Shown in pieces: positions 13,124-20,078 of a DNA stretch of 56,722 bases. The notes under the pieces are model-generated. The model saw only the letters and a list, made by a program, of their open reading frames with translations. It searched no databases and had not been told where the DNA came from. Where the stretch lies: the NCBI GenBank assembly GCA_947169745.1, contig CAMVQZ010000005.1, positions 1 to 56,722 on the forward strand. Direction: 5' to 3'. Made by a program: the position numbers and the translations under genes. Position 1 is the stretch's first letter. Each line of letters starts with the position of its first letter. The DNA is from an uncultured Clostridia bacterium. Lineage in GTDB: Bacteria > Bacillota > Clostridia > Oscillospirales > Acutalibacteraceae.

Positions 13124-14035
13124 TTATTCATATAGATTTTTTGTAAAGTAGCGGTCTCCCCTGTCCGGGAGAATAACCACGATATTTCCCCTTGCTCCAT
13201 CTGCAATAAGCTTCTTTGCTGCCGCAAGTGCAGCCCCCGAGGAAGAGCCGGCGATAATGCCCTCTTTTTTTGCAAGCTCTCTTGCACCGTCAAAGGCTTC
13301 ACTGTCAGTCATTTTTACAACCCTGTCCACAAGGGACATATCCATGGTATCAGCGATAAAATCGTTACCGATACCCTCTATGTCATAATCACCGTGTTCG
13401 CCGCCGCCCATAGTCGAACCTACAGGATCTGCAAGCACACCGAAAGTATTTTTGTTTTTCTCCTTCAGGTATTTTACAACACCTGAATATGTCCCGCCGC
13501 TGCCTGCTCCTGCAACCAGATAATCAATATTGCCGCCAAGATCGTCATATATTTCTTTTCCTGTTGTTTCATAGTGTGCCAGCGGATTGGCAGGATTTCT
13601 GAATTGTTCAAGGGTTACTGCGCCTGGTATGGAGCTGCGGATCTCCTCCGCCTTTTTCCAGGCGCCAAGCATTCCGCCCTCACGGGGAGTATTGATGATC
13701 CTTGCGCCAAGAGCACGGAGAAGCGTCTGCTTTTCCTGTGAAAACTTTGTAGGCACAACAAAGATTATTTCATAACCTCTGTTAAGTGCCGCGAAGGCTA
13801 TTCCAAGCCCTGTGTTTCCGGCAGTTGCTTCAACAATAACGCTGTCCTTTTTAAGTATGCCCTTTCTTTCAGCGTCCTCTATCATATATTTTCCGATCCT
13901 GTCCTTGACGCTGCCGGACGGATTGAAAAGCTCCAGCTTTGCATAAAGCTCAGCTCCCTCCGGGAGGTCAAGATGAGTAAGCTTTACAAGAGGAGTATTG
14001 CCGATCAGCTCCTGCATATCATTGTAGAGTGCCAT
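13124..14035 (-). CDS. mccA: O-acetylserine-dependent cystathionine beta-synthase / cysteine synthase
   Basis: 303 residues, PLP fold type II. Seen: IGNTPLVKL, the PLP-lysine motif NPSGSVKDRIG, EATAGNTGLG, AGAGSGGTYSGV and IAGSSSGAALAAA. The EATAGNTG substrate loop and the position next to mccB and luxS match the Bacillus mccA-mccB-luxS layout rather than a housekeeping CysK, a canonical copy of which lies at 18.0 kb. Predicted reaction: homocysteine + O-acetylserine to cystathionine. GCGAGGTGTAACT precedes the ATG; 2 bp from mccB. Confidence 0.83.
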   Translation of the reverse strand: MALYNDMQELIGNTPLVKLTHLDLPEGAELYAKLELFNPSGSVKDRIGKYMIEDAERKGILKKDSVIVEATAGNTGLGIAFAALNRGYEIIFVVPTKFSQEKQTLLRALGARIINTPREGGMLGAWKKAEEIRSSIPGAVTLEQFRNPANPLAHYETTGKEIYDDLGGNIDYLVAGAGSGGTYSGVVKYLKEKNKNTFGVLADPVGSTMGGGEHGDYDIEGIGNDFIADTMDMSLVDRVVKMTDSEAFDGARELAKKEGIIAGSSSGAALAAAKKLIADGARGNIVVILPDRGDRYFTKNLYE

Positions 14036-14037
14036 AG

Positions 14038-15195
14038 TTACACCTCGCTTTCAGCAATAGCCTGATCCAGATCGGCAAGAATATCATCAATATTTTCAAT
14101 GCCTATTGAAAGTCTGATGAGACCATCCGTGATACCCACCTTCTGGCGTACTTCATACGGAATAGAAGCGTGGGTCATACTTGCCGGGTGGCATACAAGG
14201 CTCTCAACACCGCCGAGACTTTCTGCAAGAGCAACAAGCTTCAGTGACCTGAAGAATTTTTTGATGTCATAGTTTTCATACAGCTCAAACGAGATCATTA
14301 CGCCGCCGTTTTTTGCCTGTCTTTTGTTTATTTCATAACCCTGTGCCCCAGGCAGTCCGGGGTAGTAAACCTTCTTTACAGCCTTATGCTCACTAAGGAA
14401 CCTTGCAGCCTTTTCCGCATTTTCCACATGACGGTCGAGACGAACGCCGAGAGTTTTGATTCCTCTGATAAGCAGAAAACTGTCAAATGGACCGGGAACG
14501 CCGCCTGTGGAATTCTGAATAAACCCTATTTGTTTTGCAAGCTTATCGTCATTTACAACCACAAGGCCTGCAACCACATCACTGTGTCCGCCGAGATACT
14601 TTGTTGCGCTGTGGATTACAATATCCGCGCCAAGCTCAAGCGGTCTCTGCAGATACGGTGTCATAAATGTATTATCAACAATTGACAAAACCCCATGCTT
14701 CGCGGCAAGTCTTGCAACTGCGGCAATATCTGTTATTGTAAGCAGCGGATTTGCGGGACTTTCGATAAGTATCGCCCTGACATCCGGAGTTATCTTCGTT
14801 TCAAGCTCTGAAAGATTTGTGGTATCCTCGATAGAGTAGCCAATACCAAAGTGATCGAATACCTTATCCAGTACCCGGAAGGTTCCGCCGTAAACATTGC
14901 TTGAAATAATAACCTTGTCTCCTGTGCGGAAAAGGCTGAGTACAGCTGTGATAGCCGCCATACCGGAACCAAAGGCAAAGCCTGCCTTTCCTCCTTCAAG
15001 CTCTGCAATAAGTGCTTCCAGCGCCGCACGGGTGGGGTTGCCTGTACGGGAATATTCCCATTTGGGTGTTTCCCCGATACCGTCCTGCTCATAAGTAGAT
15101 GTCTGATAAATGGGGACATTGACTGCCCTTGTATATTCGTCTCCGTAAATGCCCCCGTGAATAAGGGCTGATTCTATATTTTTATATGTTGACAT
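14038..15195 (-). CDS. mccB: Cystathionine gamma-lyase / Cys-Met metabolism PLP enzyme
   Basis: 385 residues, full length. Seen: TSTYEQDGIG...YSRTGNPTRAALE, FGSGMAA, DNTFMTPYLQRPLELGADIVIHSATKYLGGHSD with the PLP lysine, and the C-terminal SLGGVESLVCHPASMTH. Family members act as gamma-synthase, beta-lyase or gamma-lyase. The mccA-luxS neighbours favour gamma-lyase (cystathionine to cysteine). AGGAGTAATCAAT ribosome site; 5 bp from luxS. Confidence 0.87.
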   Translation of the reverse strand: MSTYKNIESALIHGGIYGDEYTRAVNVPIYQTSTYEQDGIGETPKWEYSRTGNPTRAALEALIAELEGGKAGFAFGSGMAAITAVLSLFRTGDKVIISSNVYGGTFRVLDKVFDHFGIGYSIEDTTNLSELETKITPDVRAILIESPANPLLTITDIAAVARLAAKHGVLSIVDNTFMTPYLQRPLELGADIVIHSATKYLGGHSDVVAGLVVVNDDKLAKQIGFIQNSTGGVPGPFDSFLLIRGIKTLGVRLDRHVENAEKAARFLSEHKAVKKVYYPGLPGAQGYEINKRQAKNGGVMISFELYENYDIKKFFRSLKLVALAESLGGVESLVCHPASMTHASIPYEVRQKVGITDGLIRLSIGIENIDDILADLDQAIAESEV

Positions 15196-15200
15196 ATTGA

Positions 15201-15662
15201 TTACTCCTTATAGTAAAGTTTTTGTTCATTGTAATTTTGAAGAATAACGAGCATATTTTCAGCCGTTTTTTTCGCTGCCGGCAGATCGTGCTCAATATAA
15301 TTACCGCATTCTTCTTTTTTACTTCCGGGTATTTCACCCTCAAAATCCGCAATAAACCTGAAGCTGTCCTGCACAAGTGATATTGCCTGACTGTGAGAAA
15401 CACTATCTCTGACAAGAAGATAAAAACCAGTCCGGCAGCCCATGGGACCTACATATATCACACTATCGGAAATCCCGCTGTTTCTTGCATAGGTGGCAAA
15501 AAGATGCTCTGTGGTGTGAAGCTCGCCGTTTCCAAGATAGTCTCCGCCGTTGGGCTTTTTCATTCTGATATCATAGGTCACAACATCACCGTCAATACGG
15601 GAAATATACATTCCTCTTTCAAGCTTGTCGTGATTTACCTTAAAGCTTGCTATTTTTTTCAT
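15201..15662 (-). CDS. luxS: S-ribosylhomocysteine lyase
   Basis: 153 residues, the usual length. The Fe-binding HTTEHLFATYARN motif is intact, with the late metal ligand region GPMGCRTGFYLLVRD and the partner Cys in that segment. Cleaves S-ribosylhomocysteine to homocysteine and DPD (the AI-2 precursor). Start ATG shares a base with the metK stop (TGATG). In this operon it supplies homocysteine to MccA/MccB. The nucleosidase that makes its substrate (Pfs/MtnN) is not in the window. Confidence 0.95.
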   Translation of the reverse strand: MKKIASFKVNHDKLERGMYISRIDGDVVTYDIRMKKPNGGDYLGNGELHTTEHLFATYARNSGISDSVIYVGPMGCRTGFYLLVRDSVSHSQAISLVQDSFRFIADFEGEIPGSKKEECGNYIEHDLPAAKKTAENMLVILQNYNEQKLYYKE

Positions 15663-17764
15663 CAGACTGCCTCCCTGAGATAATGTTCAAGATACCCTTT
15701 CAGCTCAGACGCAAGATCTGTCTTTTCCCACGGAAGATCAATATCGGTTCTGCCAAAATGACCGTAGGAAGCTGTCTGTGCATAAATAGGTCTTTGAAGA
15801 TCAAATCTCTCGATTATTCCAGAGGGTCTGAGGTCGATCGTATCCTCAACTGCCTGTCTGATAAGATCATCTGATACCCTGCCTGTTCCGTAGGTATTTA
15901 CAAGTACAGATACAGGTGAAGCAACGCCTATCGCATATGCAAGCTGTATTTCAGCTTTTTCCGCCAGTCCTGCAGCAACAATGTTTTTGGCAATATATCT
16001 TGCGGCATATGCTGCACTTCTGTCAACCTTTGTGGGATCCTTGCCTGAAAATGCTCCGCCGCCGTGTGCCGCTGCGCCTCCGTAGGTATCAACAATTATC
16101 TTCCTGCCCGTGAGCCCGCTGTCACCCACCGGACCGCCGATAACAAATCTTCCTGTCGGGTTTATAAGTATCTTATAGTCATTGTTTCTCCATTTTCCCG
16201 GAAGTGTCGGACGGATAACATATTTTATCAGGTCAGTTCTTATCTGCTCCTGTGTTATATCCGGGTCGTGCTGAGTGGAAATAAGAATAGTATCTATCCC
16301 GACAGGCTTTCCGTTTTCATATATTACTGAAACCTGGGTTTTTCCGTCAGGTCTGAGATACGGAAGAATACCATTTTCCCTTACCTCTGTCAGCTTCCCT
16401 GACAGCTTATGTGCAAGGGATATCGAAACCGGCATAAGCTCCTCTGTTTCATTGACAGCATAACCGAACATCATTCCCTGATCGCCTGCGCCGATTTCGG
16501 CATTCTTTTCCCCGCGGTGTTCAAGCGCGTCATCAACGCCCCTGGCAATATCCGGAGACTGTTTATCAATTAGCTGTATTATTTCCGCCGTATGACCATC
16601 AAACCCAAGCTCCGGACGGTCATAACCTATACCGTTGATCGTAGCTCTGACTGTTTTTTCAATATCCACAGCCGCAGAGGAAGAAACTTCTCCGACAAGA
16701 ACAACCGTATTGTTCTTTACCACCGTTTCTACTGCCACACGGGAATTGCTGTCCTCCTTCAGAAAAGCATCGAGTATTGCGTCTGAGATCATATCGCATA
16801 CCTTGTCCGGGTGTCCCTTTGTAACTGATTCTGATGTAAAAATATAATTTCTCATTTCCTTTTTCTCCTTATATGCAAGCATAAAATGTATATTTTCAAA
16901 TGCCCTGATACCATCGTCTCTGTCTGCAAAATAACGCTGCTGTATCATCTGGGGTGTTTCGTGATCCCCAATTTCAAAGCCGTATTTATCAAGCACGGAA
17001 TTGATCTCAGGAAGAGAATACCCGTGCAGCATTTTTTCCCCCAGTCTTTCAGTTATAGCTGCAAGCGTATGTACCCTTTCGGAGCCCTGGTCTGCGAGAG
17101 TGGTCTCGTCCGGATAGTCAAATGCGACTTCTCCTTCTGCGCGGCAGATATCACTGATCTTTCTTATTGTCTGCTCAAATACCGGCAAAGTCAGATAGTA
17201 TAAAACGCCAAGTATTGCAAAGAATGTGGGGATTTCCGGATCATAGCCTGACGAAAGGAGTACCTCTGTCATATCATCCTTTGAAAAATCAATGGGAACG
17301 AAGGTCAGGTTTTCCGGGATATTCCATTCAAGCTCCCGGATCCTTTCCAGCTTGTATCTGCCTGTATCCGGATGGTCAAGCTCAAATATCCTGATATCAG
17401 AATATTCGTTCCTGAAAGCAAAGGTATCCATTCCCGCACCGCAGATAACATACTGACATCCGGGATGCTTCTTTGCAAATTCAAGAAGTTTTGTTTCGGC
17501 AAAGGCTATCCTTGAAAGCGGAATAGGCGCAATATATCGGTTAAGCCTTGGATAGATCTTATCCGCTGTAAATTCTGCATTATCAGATCTGCAGCCAGGT
17601 TCAAAATCATTCTGTATAAGCTGACCTATCTCCTCAAATTCTTCCTTACCCATCAGATCATAGGCAAGATAATCATCGAATATTTTCTTGCGACCGATAT
17701 TTGAATGATAAGCACGGGCAAAGGAACAAAGCTTGGCTGTAATACTCTCCTGTGCTGCTATCAT
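15662..17764 (-). CDS. metK: Methyltransferase (LCMT-like)-S-adenosylmethionine synthetase fusion
   Basis: 700 residues in one open frame. Residues 1-303: class I SAM-dependent methyltransferase of the leucine carboxyl methyltransferase/TIGR00027 type ([50 protein letters not shown]). Residues 304-700: complete MetK starting [18 protein letters not shown], with [12 protein letters not shown] and [19 protein letters not shown]. No stop separates the two. AAGGAG lies 9 bases ahead of the MetK ATG (16855), so a free 397-residue MetK could also be made. Main start has AAAGGAG. First gene after the CCMCCC leader and attenuator, followed by luxS-mccB-mccA. Inferred: couples SAM making to its use and drives Met sulfur toward cysteine. 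Confidence 0.9.
16865..16870 (-). promoter_or_regulatory. Internal ribosome site ahead of the MetK domain
   Basis: AAGGAG on the minus strand, 9 bases before ATG at 16855, inside the codons joining the methyltransferase and MetK domains. Its presence suggests a former separate metK start and possible dual translation products. Confidence 0.6.
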
Positions 17765-17785
17765 AATATTTCTCTCCTTTCAGAC

Positions 17786-17826
17786 AAAAAAATGCCGCCT
17801 GTGCTGCGATGGTGCAGACAGACGGC
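17786..17826 (-). terminator. Attenuator terminator before the methyltransferase-MetK operon
   Basis: Minus strand: GCCGTCTGTCTGC, a 6-base loop, GCAGCACAGGCGGC (13 bp with one bulge), one A, then TTTTTTT. The 3' arm word CACAGGCGGC (17794-17803) is repeated exactly at 17871-17880, just after the leader's Cys codons. That upstream copy can pair with the 5' arm and block the terminator. Confidence 0.88.
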
Positions 17827-17843
17827 TATGGCAGAAAAATGTT

Positions 17844-17987
17844 TTACGGTAATATAAACCATCTCTGTAAGCCGCCTGTGTCACAACAACACATACAGCA
17901 GCCAACAGGCGCAGCAAAGCTGCCGGAAACAGAAACTCTGCTTTCGGATGATACAGTATCAAGCTGTATATTGCTGCGGAACTTCAT
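17844..17987 (-). CDS. Cysteine-run leader peptide (CCMCCC)
   Basis: A 47-codon frame: ATG at 17987 with AAAGAGGTAATTGAA ahead, stop TAA at 17844-17846. It starts 17 bases after the cysK stop. Residues 30-35 read CCMCCC, encoded at 17883-17900, and the peptide has no other Cys. Downstream lies a terminator (17786-17826) plus an alternative pairing, which together form a four-segment attenuator (see findings). Role: sense charged tRNA-Cys and gate transcription from cysK into metK-luxS-mccBA. Confidence 0.85.
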   Translation of the reverse strand: MKFRSNIQLDTVSSESRVSVSGSFAAPVGCCMCCCDTGGLQRWFILP

Positions 17988-18004
17988 TTCAATTACCTCT
18001 TTCT

Positions 18005-18928
18005 TTATACTGAAAACATAGCAGTCGACAGGTATCTTTCACCTGTATCGGGCAGTATTGCTACGATTATCTTTCCTTTGTTTTCCGGACGCTTTGCAAG
18101 CTCTGACGCTGCCCATACAGCCGCGCCTGAAGATATTCCGACAAGCAAACCTTCCTTTTTTGCAAGCTCTCTGCCCATCTCAAAAGCATCCTCGTTAGTC
18201 ACCTTTATTATTTCGTCATAAACAGCGGTGTTAAGTGTTTCAGGCACAAATCCTGCACCGATTCCCTGTATCTTGTGGGGACCCGGTTTTTCCCCGGAAA
18301 GAACAGGCGAACCTGCAGGCTCTACCGCAACCACCTGAACATTCGGATTTTTACTTTTCAGATATTCTCCCACACCGGAAACTGTACCGCCTGTCCCGAC
18401 GCCTGCAACAAAAATATCTACCCTTCCGTCGGTGTTCTCCCATATTTCGGGACCCGTTGTGTCATAATGTATCTTCGGATTTGCACTGTTGGTAAACTGA
18501 CTGGGAATAAAGCTGTGTGCGTTTTCGGCAGCAAGCTCCTGCGCCTTTTCGATAGCGCCCTTCATTCCCTTTACTCCCTCGGTCAGAACCACCTTTGCGC
18601 CATAGGCTTTGAGAAGGTTTCTGCGCTCAATGCTCATTGTTTCAGGCATTGTAAGAATAACCTGATAGCCTCTTGCAGCACAGACGGCCGCAAGACCGAT
18701 TCCGGTATTTCCGCTTGTGGGTTCGATAATCACCGAATCGGGTTTAAGAAGTCCCTTTGCCTCGGCGTCATCTATCATCGCCTTCGCAATTCTGTCCTTG
18801 ACGCTTCCGGCCGGATTGAAATATTCCAGCTTGCCGAAAACTCTTGCACTTGTATTTCTGCTTATTGTCTCCAGCTCTAATAGCGGAGTTTTCCCGATAA
18901 GGTCTGTTATTTTTTTATATGTTTTCAT
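18005..18928 (-). CDS. cysK: Cysteine synthase (O-acetylserine sulfhydrylase)
   Basis: 307 residues, canonical CysK. Seen: [24 protein letters not shown] with the PLP lysine, [26 protein letters not shown] and [11 protein letters not shown]. Converts O-acetylserine and sulfide to cysteine. Has its own strong promoter 140 bp upstream; GAGGAGAGATATAT precedes ATG. Followed by the Cys leader, so some transcripts end after the leader and yield only cysK. Confidence 0.93.
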
Positions 18929-18969
18929 ATATATCTCTCCTCAGATGTTTTAACGGTCAAAAGGCAGTG

Positions 18970-19002
18970 TCAACATCGTTTCTGAGAATGTATGTAAGTC
19001 AT
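18970..19002 (-). CDS. Possible upstream peptide MTYIHSQKRC
   Basis: A 10-codon frame in the cysK 5' leader with a strong ribosome site (AAGGAG, 8 bases from ATG at 19002). Its last sense codon is Cys, directly before TGA. No terminator hairpin is visible between it and cysK, so any control would be translational or Rho-dependent. Such short frames arise by chance; support is the ribosome site and the Cys-stop ending only. Confidence 0.4.
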   Translation of the reverse strand: MTYIHSQKRC

Positions 19003-19025
19003 AGAGATTTCTCCTTGTCAAAAGC

Positions 19026-19054
19026 ATACAACCTATTTAAATGGTAGGTTTATT
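19026..19054 (-). promoter_or_regulatory. Operator downstream of the cysK -10
   Basis: Interrupted palindrome AACCTA-N9-TAGGTT, with the right arm extending to TAGGTTTATT as at 24570-24598. It covers roughly +3 to +30 of the cysK transcript, a repressor position. Confidence 0.65.
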
Positions 19055-19063
19055 CCATAAAGT

Positions 19064-19092
19064 ATTATCTCACATATGCTCTGCTTTGTCAA
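19064..19092 (-). promoter_or_regulatory. cysK promoter
   Basis: Minus strand TTGACA (19087-19092), 17-bp spacer, GATAAT (19064-19069). Near-consensus for the housekeeping sigma factor. Confidence 0.85.
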
Positions 19093-19113
19093 GAATAATT
19101 AAGGGTTTTGCTT

Positions 19114-19128
19114 ATAGAATAATCCTAT
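19114..19128 (-). promoter_or_regulatory. LysR-type site upstream of cysK
   Basis: ATAG-GATTATT-CTAT, an ATAG-N7-CTAT palindrome fitting T-N11-A, centred about 64 bp upstream of the likely start. The same spacing is seen at 11331-11345. Confidence 0.55.
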
Positions 19129-19157
19129 TACTGGTTATAGAAAACACTCGCCTCATT

Positions 19158-20078
19158 TTATGCCGTTCCAAGCCTTATCATTTCATCGATACATTTTTTC
19201 GCTTCTGAAATAGTATCCGGGGGCAGAATTATCTCTTCGCCGCTCCTGCCCGAAACACAGTTATACAGGTCAACAAGGGTTGTTGATTTCATATTGGGGC
19301 AGATAAGTTTTTTTGTAAGATAATAGAAATCCTTGTCGGGACAGCGATACTGCAAATGCTCCTGAATGCTTATCTCTGTTCCAATAATGAATTCCTTACA
19401 GTCAGAGTTTATCGCATAATTCATTATACCGGAGGTCGAGCCGATATAATCAGCCATCGCACAAACACCCGGCTTGCATTCGGGATGCACGAGCAAGAGT
19501 GCGTCAGGGTGCAGCTTCTTTGCCGTTTTTACATCATCGGTGTTGACACAGGCGTGTATCGGACATCCGCCGGAAAGCAGCTTGAAGGTTTTTTCAGGTA
19601 CCTGCGCGGCGACATATGCGCCAAGATTGCAGTCCGGAATGAAAAGTATCTTATCGTTTTCGATCTTCCGGCATATCTCCACAGCCGAGGACGATGTCAC
19701 ACATACATCGCAGATAGTTTTGAGTCGGGCAGTAGTATTGATGTATGCAACCACAGTATAGCCGGGATATTGTTCCTTTACTGCACTTATAAGCTCTTTG
19801 TCCATCTGGTCAGCCATTGCGCAGCCGGCATCGGGATTCGGCAAAAACACACGCTTTTCCGGGGAGAGTATCTTGCAGGTCTCTGCCATAAAACGGACGC
19901 CGCTCATTACTATCGTGCTGTTGGGAGCCTTTGAAGCGTCAACACTGAGCTTATAGGAATCACCTGTGAAATCGGCGACCTCAAGTATTTCCTTTGCCTG
20001 ATAGCTGTGGGCAAGAATACAGATATCCTTTTCTTTTTTCAAACGTATTATCTCTCTTTGTAATTCTGAAATATTCAT
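19158..20078 (-). CDS. nadA: Quinolinate synthase homologue
   Basis: 306 residues. Seen: CILAHSYQAKEILEVADFTGDSYKLS, VMSGVRFMAET, AYINTTA, VTSSSAVEI, IPDCNLGAYVA, HPECKPGVCAMADYIGSTSG and CPNMKSTTL. The three cluster Cys positions of NadA appear conserved. Known reaction: iminoaspartate + DHAP to quinolinate. The family HYYQ motif is HSYQ here. Neither nadB nor nadC is adjacent; it is the last gene of the operon with gamma-glutamyl ligases and a HydE-like protein. It may be the normal NadA placed here, or a repurposed homologue. AAAGGAAACTAGAT precedes ATG. Confidence 0.85.
   Translation of the reverse strand: MNISELQREIIRLKKEKDICILAHSYQAKEILEVADFTGDSYKLSVDASKAPNSTIVMSGVRFMAETCKILSPEKRVFLPNPDAGCAMADQMDKELISAVKEQYPGYTVVAYINTTARLKTICDVCVTSSSAVEICRKIENDKILFIPDCNLGAYVAAQVPEKTFKLLSGGCPIHACVNTDDVKTAKKLHPDALLLVHPECKPGVCAMADYIGSTSGIMNYAINSDCKEFIIGTEISIQEHLQYRCPDKDFYYLTKKLICPNMKSTTLVDLYNCVSGRSGEEIILPPDTISEAKKCIDEMIRLGTA

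Follow-up and report, generated by a model that had tools for sequence, protein, structure and literature searches.

The window, as we call the whole stretch of 56,722 nucleotides that was analysed, carries on its minus strand a short open reading frame with a cluster of cysteine codons, located between cysK and a group of genes for methionine and cysteine metabolism. Read from 5' to 3' on that strand, the features are:

19064..19092, minus strand: promoter-like TTGACA-17-GATAAT upstream of cysK (11/12 matches)
18928-18005, minus strand: cysK, the gene upstream of the leader
17995..18000, minus strand: AGAGGT, likely ribosome-binding site of the leader, read from sequence
17987-17844, minus strand: leader ORF, 47 codons plus stop, MKFRSNIQLDTVSSESRVSVSGSFAAPVGCCMCCCDTGGLQRWFILP
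17923..17947, minus strand: hairpin CCGAAA...TTTCCGG within the leader, upstream of the Cys codons
17911-17905, minus strand: CGCCTGT, segment 1 of the earlier note
17900-17883, minus strand: putative sensor codons TGC TGT ATG TGT TGT TGT (Cys-Cys-Met-Cys-Cys-Cys)
17870..17879, minus strand: segment 2, 5' arm of the predicted antiterminator, ACAGGCGGCT, with the word ACAGGCGGC at 17879-17871
17828..17869, minus strand: spacer with the leader stop codon, predicted to fold inside the antiterminator
17818..17827, minus strand: segment 3, the shared arm, AGCCGTCTGT, with the word GCCGTCTGT at 17826-17818
17802-17794, minus strand: segment 4, 3' arm of the predicted terminator, ACAGGCGGC
17792-17786, minus strand: seven T, U tract of the terminator
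15662..17764, minus strand: fusion of 700 aa, LCM-type SAM-dependent methyltransferase (PF04072, TIGR00027) plus methionine adenosyltransferase MetK
15201..15662, minus strand: luxS, S-ribosylhomocysteine lyase
14038..15195, minus strand: mccB-like Cys/Met PLP enzyme
13124..14035, minus strand: mccA-like PLP enzyme of the cysteine synthase/cystathionine beta-synthase type, under every cut-off

The coordinates and words in an earlier note on this DNA (leader, Cys codons, segments and the seven T) proved correct to the base, and the identical 10-base word in which it had placed segments 2 and 4 is CACAGGCGGC, found both at 17880-17871 and at 17803-17794. The neighbouring genes had been named rightly as to their identities, but methyltransferase and MetK form one single ORF and the labels mccB and mccA rest on scores under the curated NCBIfam cut-offs. 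For the mccB-like gene the best model is cystathionine gamma-lyase/homocysteine desulfhydrase, with 551 bits against a cut-off of 594. The leader ORF starts 17 nt past the end of cysK and both probably share one transcript; words like AGAGGT were seen by eye 5' of most leaders of the genus. The promoter-like sequence before cysK is the top site among 13 found, the mean in shuffled sequences being 12.5 sites. Just 3' of it, at 19030-19050, lies a palindrome AACCTA-N9-TAGGTT, which we take to be a putative repressor site, possibly of the Rrf2/CymR type. To the eye, AAACCTAT/ATAGG words near promoters in the Treponema and R. bromii copies resemble this palindrome.

Studying the genus reveals that methyltransferase and leader occur together. 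The methyltransferase is present in 32 of the 64 genus genomes searched, one of which (G015) matched only with a 3' piece, and all 33 copies whose 5' end lies on the contig (31 genomes) are preceded by a leader with Cys codons. In each of the 30 loci read upstream, window included, this is an ATG ORF with a Cys cluster, in 23 of them with CCMCC; three further copies, two being second copies within a genome, likewise have the Cys leader. Segments 2, 3 and 4 were found by script in 29 of these 30 loci, and in the remaining one (L026) the segment words are present and the U tract is poor. The Cys codons and the segment pairing, on whose conservation in close relatives the earlier note had made its proposal depend, are thus both conserved there. 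In the tree the nearest named methyltransferase belongs to an uncultured Ruminococcus (86% identity).

A covariance model (R1) run over the 64 genus genomes gave 30 best matches (E<=1.4e-7), all of which adjoin a methyltransferase gene. Sixteen further matches away from the methyltransferase (E 6.8e-7 to 1.9e-4) were rejected as copies on inspection: 14 represent the 3' end of one surface-protein-like gene followed by an ordinary terminator, and the two others have no Cys run. This recurrent gene end, like TSAVALVAVVIASLGAAVVMTKKASSKE-stop and then the terminator (14 of the 16, L192-L207), is what caused the weak matches. The model also misses real copies, finding none in G055 and the one in G006 at E 0.097. 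The pattern Cys-Cys-x-Cys-Cys occurs at 50 places in the window's genome, all of which were translated. Among 21 of these places an in-frame ATG precedes the Cys run at three, L230 (33 aa), L238 (11 aa) and L044 (65 aa), and by eye the window's place alone resembles a leader of its type. A frame of 52 codons without ATG on contig C4 of the same genome (36407-36436, L036-L039) contains eleven Cys codons and one Lys; this run is perhaps the antisense of a Gln-rich stretch.

Species genomes were also scanned for the methyltransferase, and the best 80 of 170 relatives were kept; many of these named loci (L080-L159) are the same contigs as the genus loci L003-L031, the two sets not being independent, nor are loci of near relatives independent of each other. 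To pass the script, a locus needs a terminator, a leader in which eight codons include at least three Cys, and a helix that joins the 5' arm of that terminator to sequence following the first Cys codon. Leader, antiterminator and terminator were found in 66 of these best 80. As controls, 601 other ORFs in these loci, each 200 aa or longer, were put through the same script; 3 passed, and 41 are preceded by a Cys leader when that feature is taken by itself. Two of the passing controls (L131 minus strand and L144) look like chance; the third is L122. At the L131 locus itself the helix that satisfied the script is probably a wrong one. Three of the 80 loci have less than 330 nt upstream, and 11 of the remaining 77 fail: five have a Cys leader and fail elsewhere, while six lack it by script, among them L119, which has Cys codons by eye.

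Going by record titles, the passing carriers include Ruminococcus bromii YE282, Eubacterium oxidoreducens DSM 3217, Ruminiclostridium sufflavum DSM 19573 and Lachnoclostridium sp. MSJ-17, as well as five of seven Treponema loci (several isolate series) and one Gastranaerophilales MAG. A Cys leader only was seen in Anaerotignum sp. MB30-C6, the Alphaproteobacterial MAG L144 and Treponema L157, and by script no Cys leader was found in a second Alphaproteobacterial MAG (L150) and in Treponema L152. Because many of the records are MAGs, single placements may be binning errors. A quick tree of 59 rows, for which 21 loci were left out as near-duplicates or broken and one more was removed by a length filter, gave no direction of transfer between the phyla.

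A search of the window's family gave methyltransferase matches in 20 of 300 genomes; 12 loci were checked upstream and the six weakest (L074-L079) left out. Cys leaders are present at L062 and L063. Nine family loci with at most 37% identity have no Cys leader, two of them with a cut flank, so that among these distant LCM methyltransferases 0 of the seven with complete flank are preceded by one. L064, from another genus of the family and with a 48% identical methyltransferase, has a Cys-rich leader with the groups CCSC and CCC, and no obvious likeness of this leader to the window's was seen.

The 202-nt stretch from the start of the leader to the end of the U tract folds at -76.8 kcal/mol, compared to -55.65 +/- 4.03 for shuffled sequences (z -5.25, 0 of 200 as low). 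The 3:4 hairpin is not listed by a simple terminator scan of the window, because its 9-bp stem encloses 15 nt and its inner stem has 4 pairs, both beyond the limits of the scan. In the 30-row genus alignment 92.5% of the 3:4 cells are paired, and 12 cells are changed on both sides, a value reached by 0 of 500 shuffles. Of the 2:3 cells 95.6% are paired, and one pair uses G-U, A-U and G-C; with one pair showing a double change the counts are scarcely above those of shuffles, because the segment hardly varies within the genus. Outside the genus the 2:3 pairing is kept while the words change, to GCGGACGG/CCGTCCGT in L125, CAGGTGG/CCACCTG in L121, ACGAGTGG/CCGCTCGT in L130 and ACAGGGCGGTG/TGCCGCCTTGT in R. 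bromii L132. When only the window's sequence is considered, shuffling the 5' side seldom gives a helix as good as 2:3 (p about 0.01; 200 shuffles, minimum 0.005). The same helix reaches p<=0.05 in 59 of 67 loci (the 66 plus the window), a count that is not independent, because the 66 were partly chosen for having it. As read from these alignments, the predicted terminator is supported by covariation, the antiterminator by its persistence in the genus and the changed words outside, and segment 1 by neither.

The earlier note had proposed a full four-segment attenuator; in such a scheme an untranslated leader would form 1:2 and so hold segment 2 off segment 3. Segments 1 and 2 of the window can form a 7-bp helix, 90.5% of the genus cells are paired in its CGYC/GGCG part, and a word like segment 1 is found in L003, L004, L008 and L010. 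Over all seven pairs, however, 76.5% of the cells are paired where 76.3% are expected, the helix reaches p<=0.05 in only 2 of the 67 loci (window p 0.17), and it is missing from the fold of the window's free RNA. We therefore rejected segment 1 as a working part, its pairing being at chance, and regard this scheme as unlikely. A 1:2 hairpin belongs to the trp scheme and not to every attenuator; neither the genus alignment nor the 67 loci provide one of the trp type, and the description should accordingly be reduced to three segments (2, 3 and 4), which stand.

The hairpin at 17923..17947 is paired in 88.3% of the genus cells; as a covarying element it was rejected, since its covariation is no better than that of shuffles. 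It may be a pause hairpin. In 32 of the 67 loci the fold of the 72 nt that precede the Cys codons has z<-2. Between segments 2 and 3 (17828-17869), inside the antiterminator, a small GTTTTA...TAAAAC hairpin can be seen by eye in many genus members.

Segment 2 is also part of the coding region of the leader. In the window the codons of its core are ACA GGC GGC, for Thr-Gly-Gly; in three Treponema leaders (L143, L146, L147) they are CAC AGG CGG, for His-Arg-Arg. The core is recognisable in 64 of the 67 loci, in 57 of them in the window's phase to the Cys codons and in 5 and 2 in the other phases. Since seven of the 64 have it in other frames, it is not kept for its peptide but as RNA, and the compensated changes of its words lead to the same conclusion. 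This bears on the possibility that the Cys-rich leader is itself active, by binding metal, thiols or oxidants or as an arrest peptide, and that charging of tRNA-Cys is not read at all. Peptides with Cys runs could bind metal or react, and the keeping of CCMCC in most genus loci would agree with this. But outside the Cys run the peptide varies freely among loci, other loci have L, I, A, P, R, V or C in place of the Met of the run, the word that follows is found in different frames, and the downstream genes fit the making of cysteine, for which reasons we consider an active peptide very improbable.

When the first Cys codon occupies its A site, a ribosome covers about 15 nt of the RNA further downstream. 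From the first Cys codon to segment 2 there are 17-31 nt (median 24, 66 loci), so that segment 2 would stay free during a wait at any of the first two or three of these codons. For the window we calculated -24.2 kcal/mol for the antiterminator up to segment 3, spacer included, with a ribosome at Cys codon 1 or 2, and -18.9 at codon 3; at codon 5 it is lost (-7.8), and a ribosome placed on the stop codon leaves 3:4 alone (-23.3). The antiterminator of the window, at -24.2, compares with -21.8 to -23.3. With a ribosome at the first Cys codon 2:3 is in the MFE structure of 65 of the 67 loci (it is absent in L143 and L158), and 3:4 is found in 66 of 67. The median energies of the 67 loci are -22.3 with 2:3 free, -8.0 with segment 2 covered and -22.7 for the terminator. 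Folding and comparison thus support the claim that 2:3 and 3:4 exclude each other.

At equilibrium with segment 2 free the terminator is favoured in the window (-36.0 versus -27.9 with 2:3 forced), which means that the switch must be kinetic and decided while the polymerase moves. In 35 of the 67 loci no more than 15 nt separate segment 2 from the leader stop. In the other 32, the window (23 nt) among them, the distance is greater, and segment 2 would lie out of reach of a ribosome paused at the stop; in these loci the ribosome would have to act in passing.

Of the features of a leader-peptide attenuator we thus found a short ORF with Cys codons, an intrinsic terminator before the first gene that would be regulated and, by folding and comparison only, an antiterminator which excludes the terminator and can form only while the ribosome is stalled at the Cys codons. 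Comparison of the loci establishes the Cys codons, the nearly constant spacing between them and segment 2, and the predicted 2:3 and 3:4 pairings, and supports the claim of a Cys-codon leader ahead of a methionine-to-cysteine operon. On this basis we hold with good confidence that the locus encodes a ribosome-mediated transcription attenuator, which senses charged tRNA-Cys and gates this operon. The course of events that we infer, including translation, stalling, termination, read-through, the response to cysteine and co-transcription with cysK, would be as follows. Transcription, starting probably at the cysK promoter, would enter the leader. A shortage of Cys-tRNA would make the ribosome wait at the first Cys codons with its edge short of segment 2, the long 2:3 antiterminator hairpin would form before segment 4 is made, and RNA polymerase would continue into the methyltransferase-MetK, luxS, mccB-like and mccA-like genes. 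With ample Cys-tRNA, the ribosome would pass over segment 2 and leave segment 3 for segment 4, whereupon the 3:4 hairpin and the U tract would end transcription and only cysK would be made.

One could also think of a mere cysK terminator with chance repeats and no regulation, as a terminator directly follows cysK in many genomes and the equilibrium folds favour it. To this we give very little credence, given the conserved Cys leader at its near-fixed distance, the conserved 2:3 pairing, the rarity of passing controls, and the presence of the same device in R. bromii L132 and five Treponema loci, upstream of which no cysK turned up. A known riboswitch or T-box would be suggested by the similar Clostridium operon (ubiGmccBA; luxS in C. 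perfringens), which has a Cys T-box (PMC2940859), and by the T-boxes in the window's genome. Rfam 15 gave no match in 17500-19200 up to E 1 and none in the loci of 10 relatives, and the whole window at gathering scores gave only a tRNA. The T-box model (RF00230) does not match at the leader, though it matches elsewhere in the genome, and, as far as the families of Rfam 15 go, a known element of this kind is highly improbable. The attenuator read by a translating ribosome remains our preferred explanation.

Cysteine can be made from methionine by way of SAM, SAH, S-ribosylhomocysteine, homocysteine and cystathionine, and the gene set of the operon fits this route. Where the contig allows it to be seen, an MccB-like protein is encoded downstream of the methyltransferase in 59 of 64 loci, an MccA-like one in 56 of 60, LuxS in 47 of 69 and MetK in 23 of 70; a recount of neighbour genes by best match gave the same result. 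The methyltransferase-MetK fusion occurs in 9 of the 80 named loci. CysK is encoded just upstream in 52 of 72 loci, and the leader begins a median of 12 nt after the cysK stop (53 loci), a value that depends on the start codon chosen. At the luxS position LuxS comes in two kinds, one sharing about 62-90% and the other about 35-42% identity with that of the window. A nucleosidase gene is absent from the window's operon; the genome has four PNP_UDP_1 genes. It also has a second metK elsewhere (62% identity), near which no SAM riboswitch was matched with Rfam.

Six T-boxes above the cut-off are present in the window's genome, and the best one precedes cysE (TIGR01172, 236.4 bits against a cut-off of 210.65). 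This T-box (L212 67-279, contig C33) has UGC at the specifier position, as read from the alignment, so two sensors of tRNA-Cys seem to coexist in the genome. Judged from sequence, the cell seems to control its sulfide route through a Cys T-box and its methionine route through a leader peptide. A broader reading joins both observations. There may be a self-regulated cassette of Cys-leader attenuator, LCM methyltransferase and mccB-mccA, often with luxS and at times with its own metK, which would range across Bacillota, Spirochaetota and Gastranaerophilales and extend, at least as a leader, to an Alphaproteobacterial MAG. In the window's cell the supply of cysteine would be divided between two RNA sensors of tRNA-Cys, a T-box at cysE serving the sulfide route and a leader peptide serving the methionine one, and methionine would be spent only under a separately set threshold. 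We put this forward tentatively, its chances being somewhat short of even.

Cys leaders as such are already known from Actinobacteria and Rhodobacterales, and mycobacterial poly-Cys ORFs were reportedly studied by Canestrari et al. 2020; notable here are the wide spread and the second sensor alongside. In Rhodobacterales a Cys leader attenuator, uORFC-8-2, precedes cysS (PMC8632094). It resembles the window's leader in its short ORF, tandem Cys codons, terminator stem with U run and proposed stalling at Cys codons, and differs in having two tandem Cys codons, in the gene and in the phylum. Mycobacterium and P. acnes also have leaders with Cys runs, in front of cys operons, as does B. longum in front of cbs (PMC1262725). 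They likewise place runs of Cys codons ahead of a cysteine-linked operon, but terminator hairpins were not found there and Rho was suggested, whereas the window has a predicted intrinsic terminator and antiterminator. The Clostridium ubiGmccBA(luxS) operon shares methyltransferase, mccB, mccA and luxS with the window and by logic the same signal (PMC2940859). Its Cys T-box reads the tRNA directly and its methyltransferase is called UbiG (PMC2940859), while the window is predicted to use a translated leader. Ordinary leader-peptide attenuation in Firmicutes instead of T-boxes is found for His in bacilli, where regular leader peptides before hisS paralogues were termed a noticeable finding (PMC2965389), and for the Leu leader of S. 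aureus ilv-leu, in whose description predicted ones from Lactococcus and Streptococcus are cited (PMC5794164). These differ from the window's leader in amino acid, operon and sequence, and are consistent with the remark in the earlier note that such attenuators are rarely described in Firmicutes (PMC2965389, PMC5794164). In the open-licence PMC literature we found no Cys leader before a methyltransferase-mccBA operon and none for cysteine in Firmicutes.

The predicted attenuator would add a cysteine leader peptide with an intrinsic terminator to the Bacillota, and this at a type of operon which in Clostridium is under the control of a Cys T-box. T-boxes are the usual solution in this phylum. 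It would also give a function to the ORFs with Cys runs of some 20-60 codons before these operons. As two devices apparently read the same tRNA in one genome, differences between them in threshold or speed become testable.
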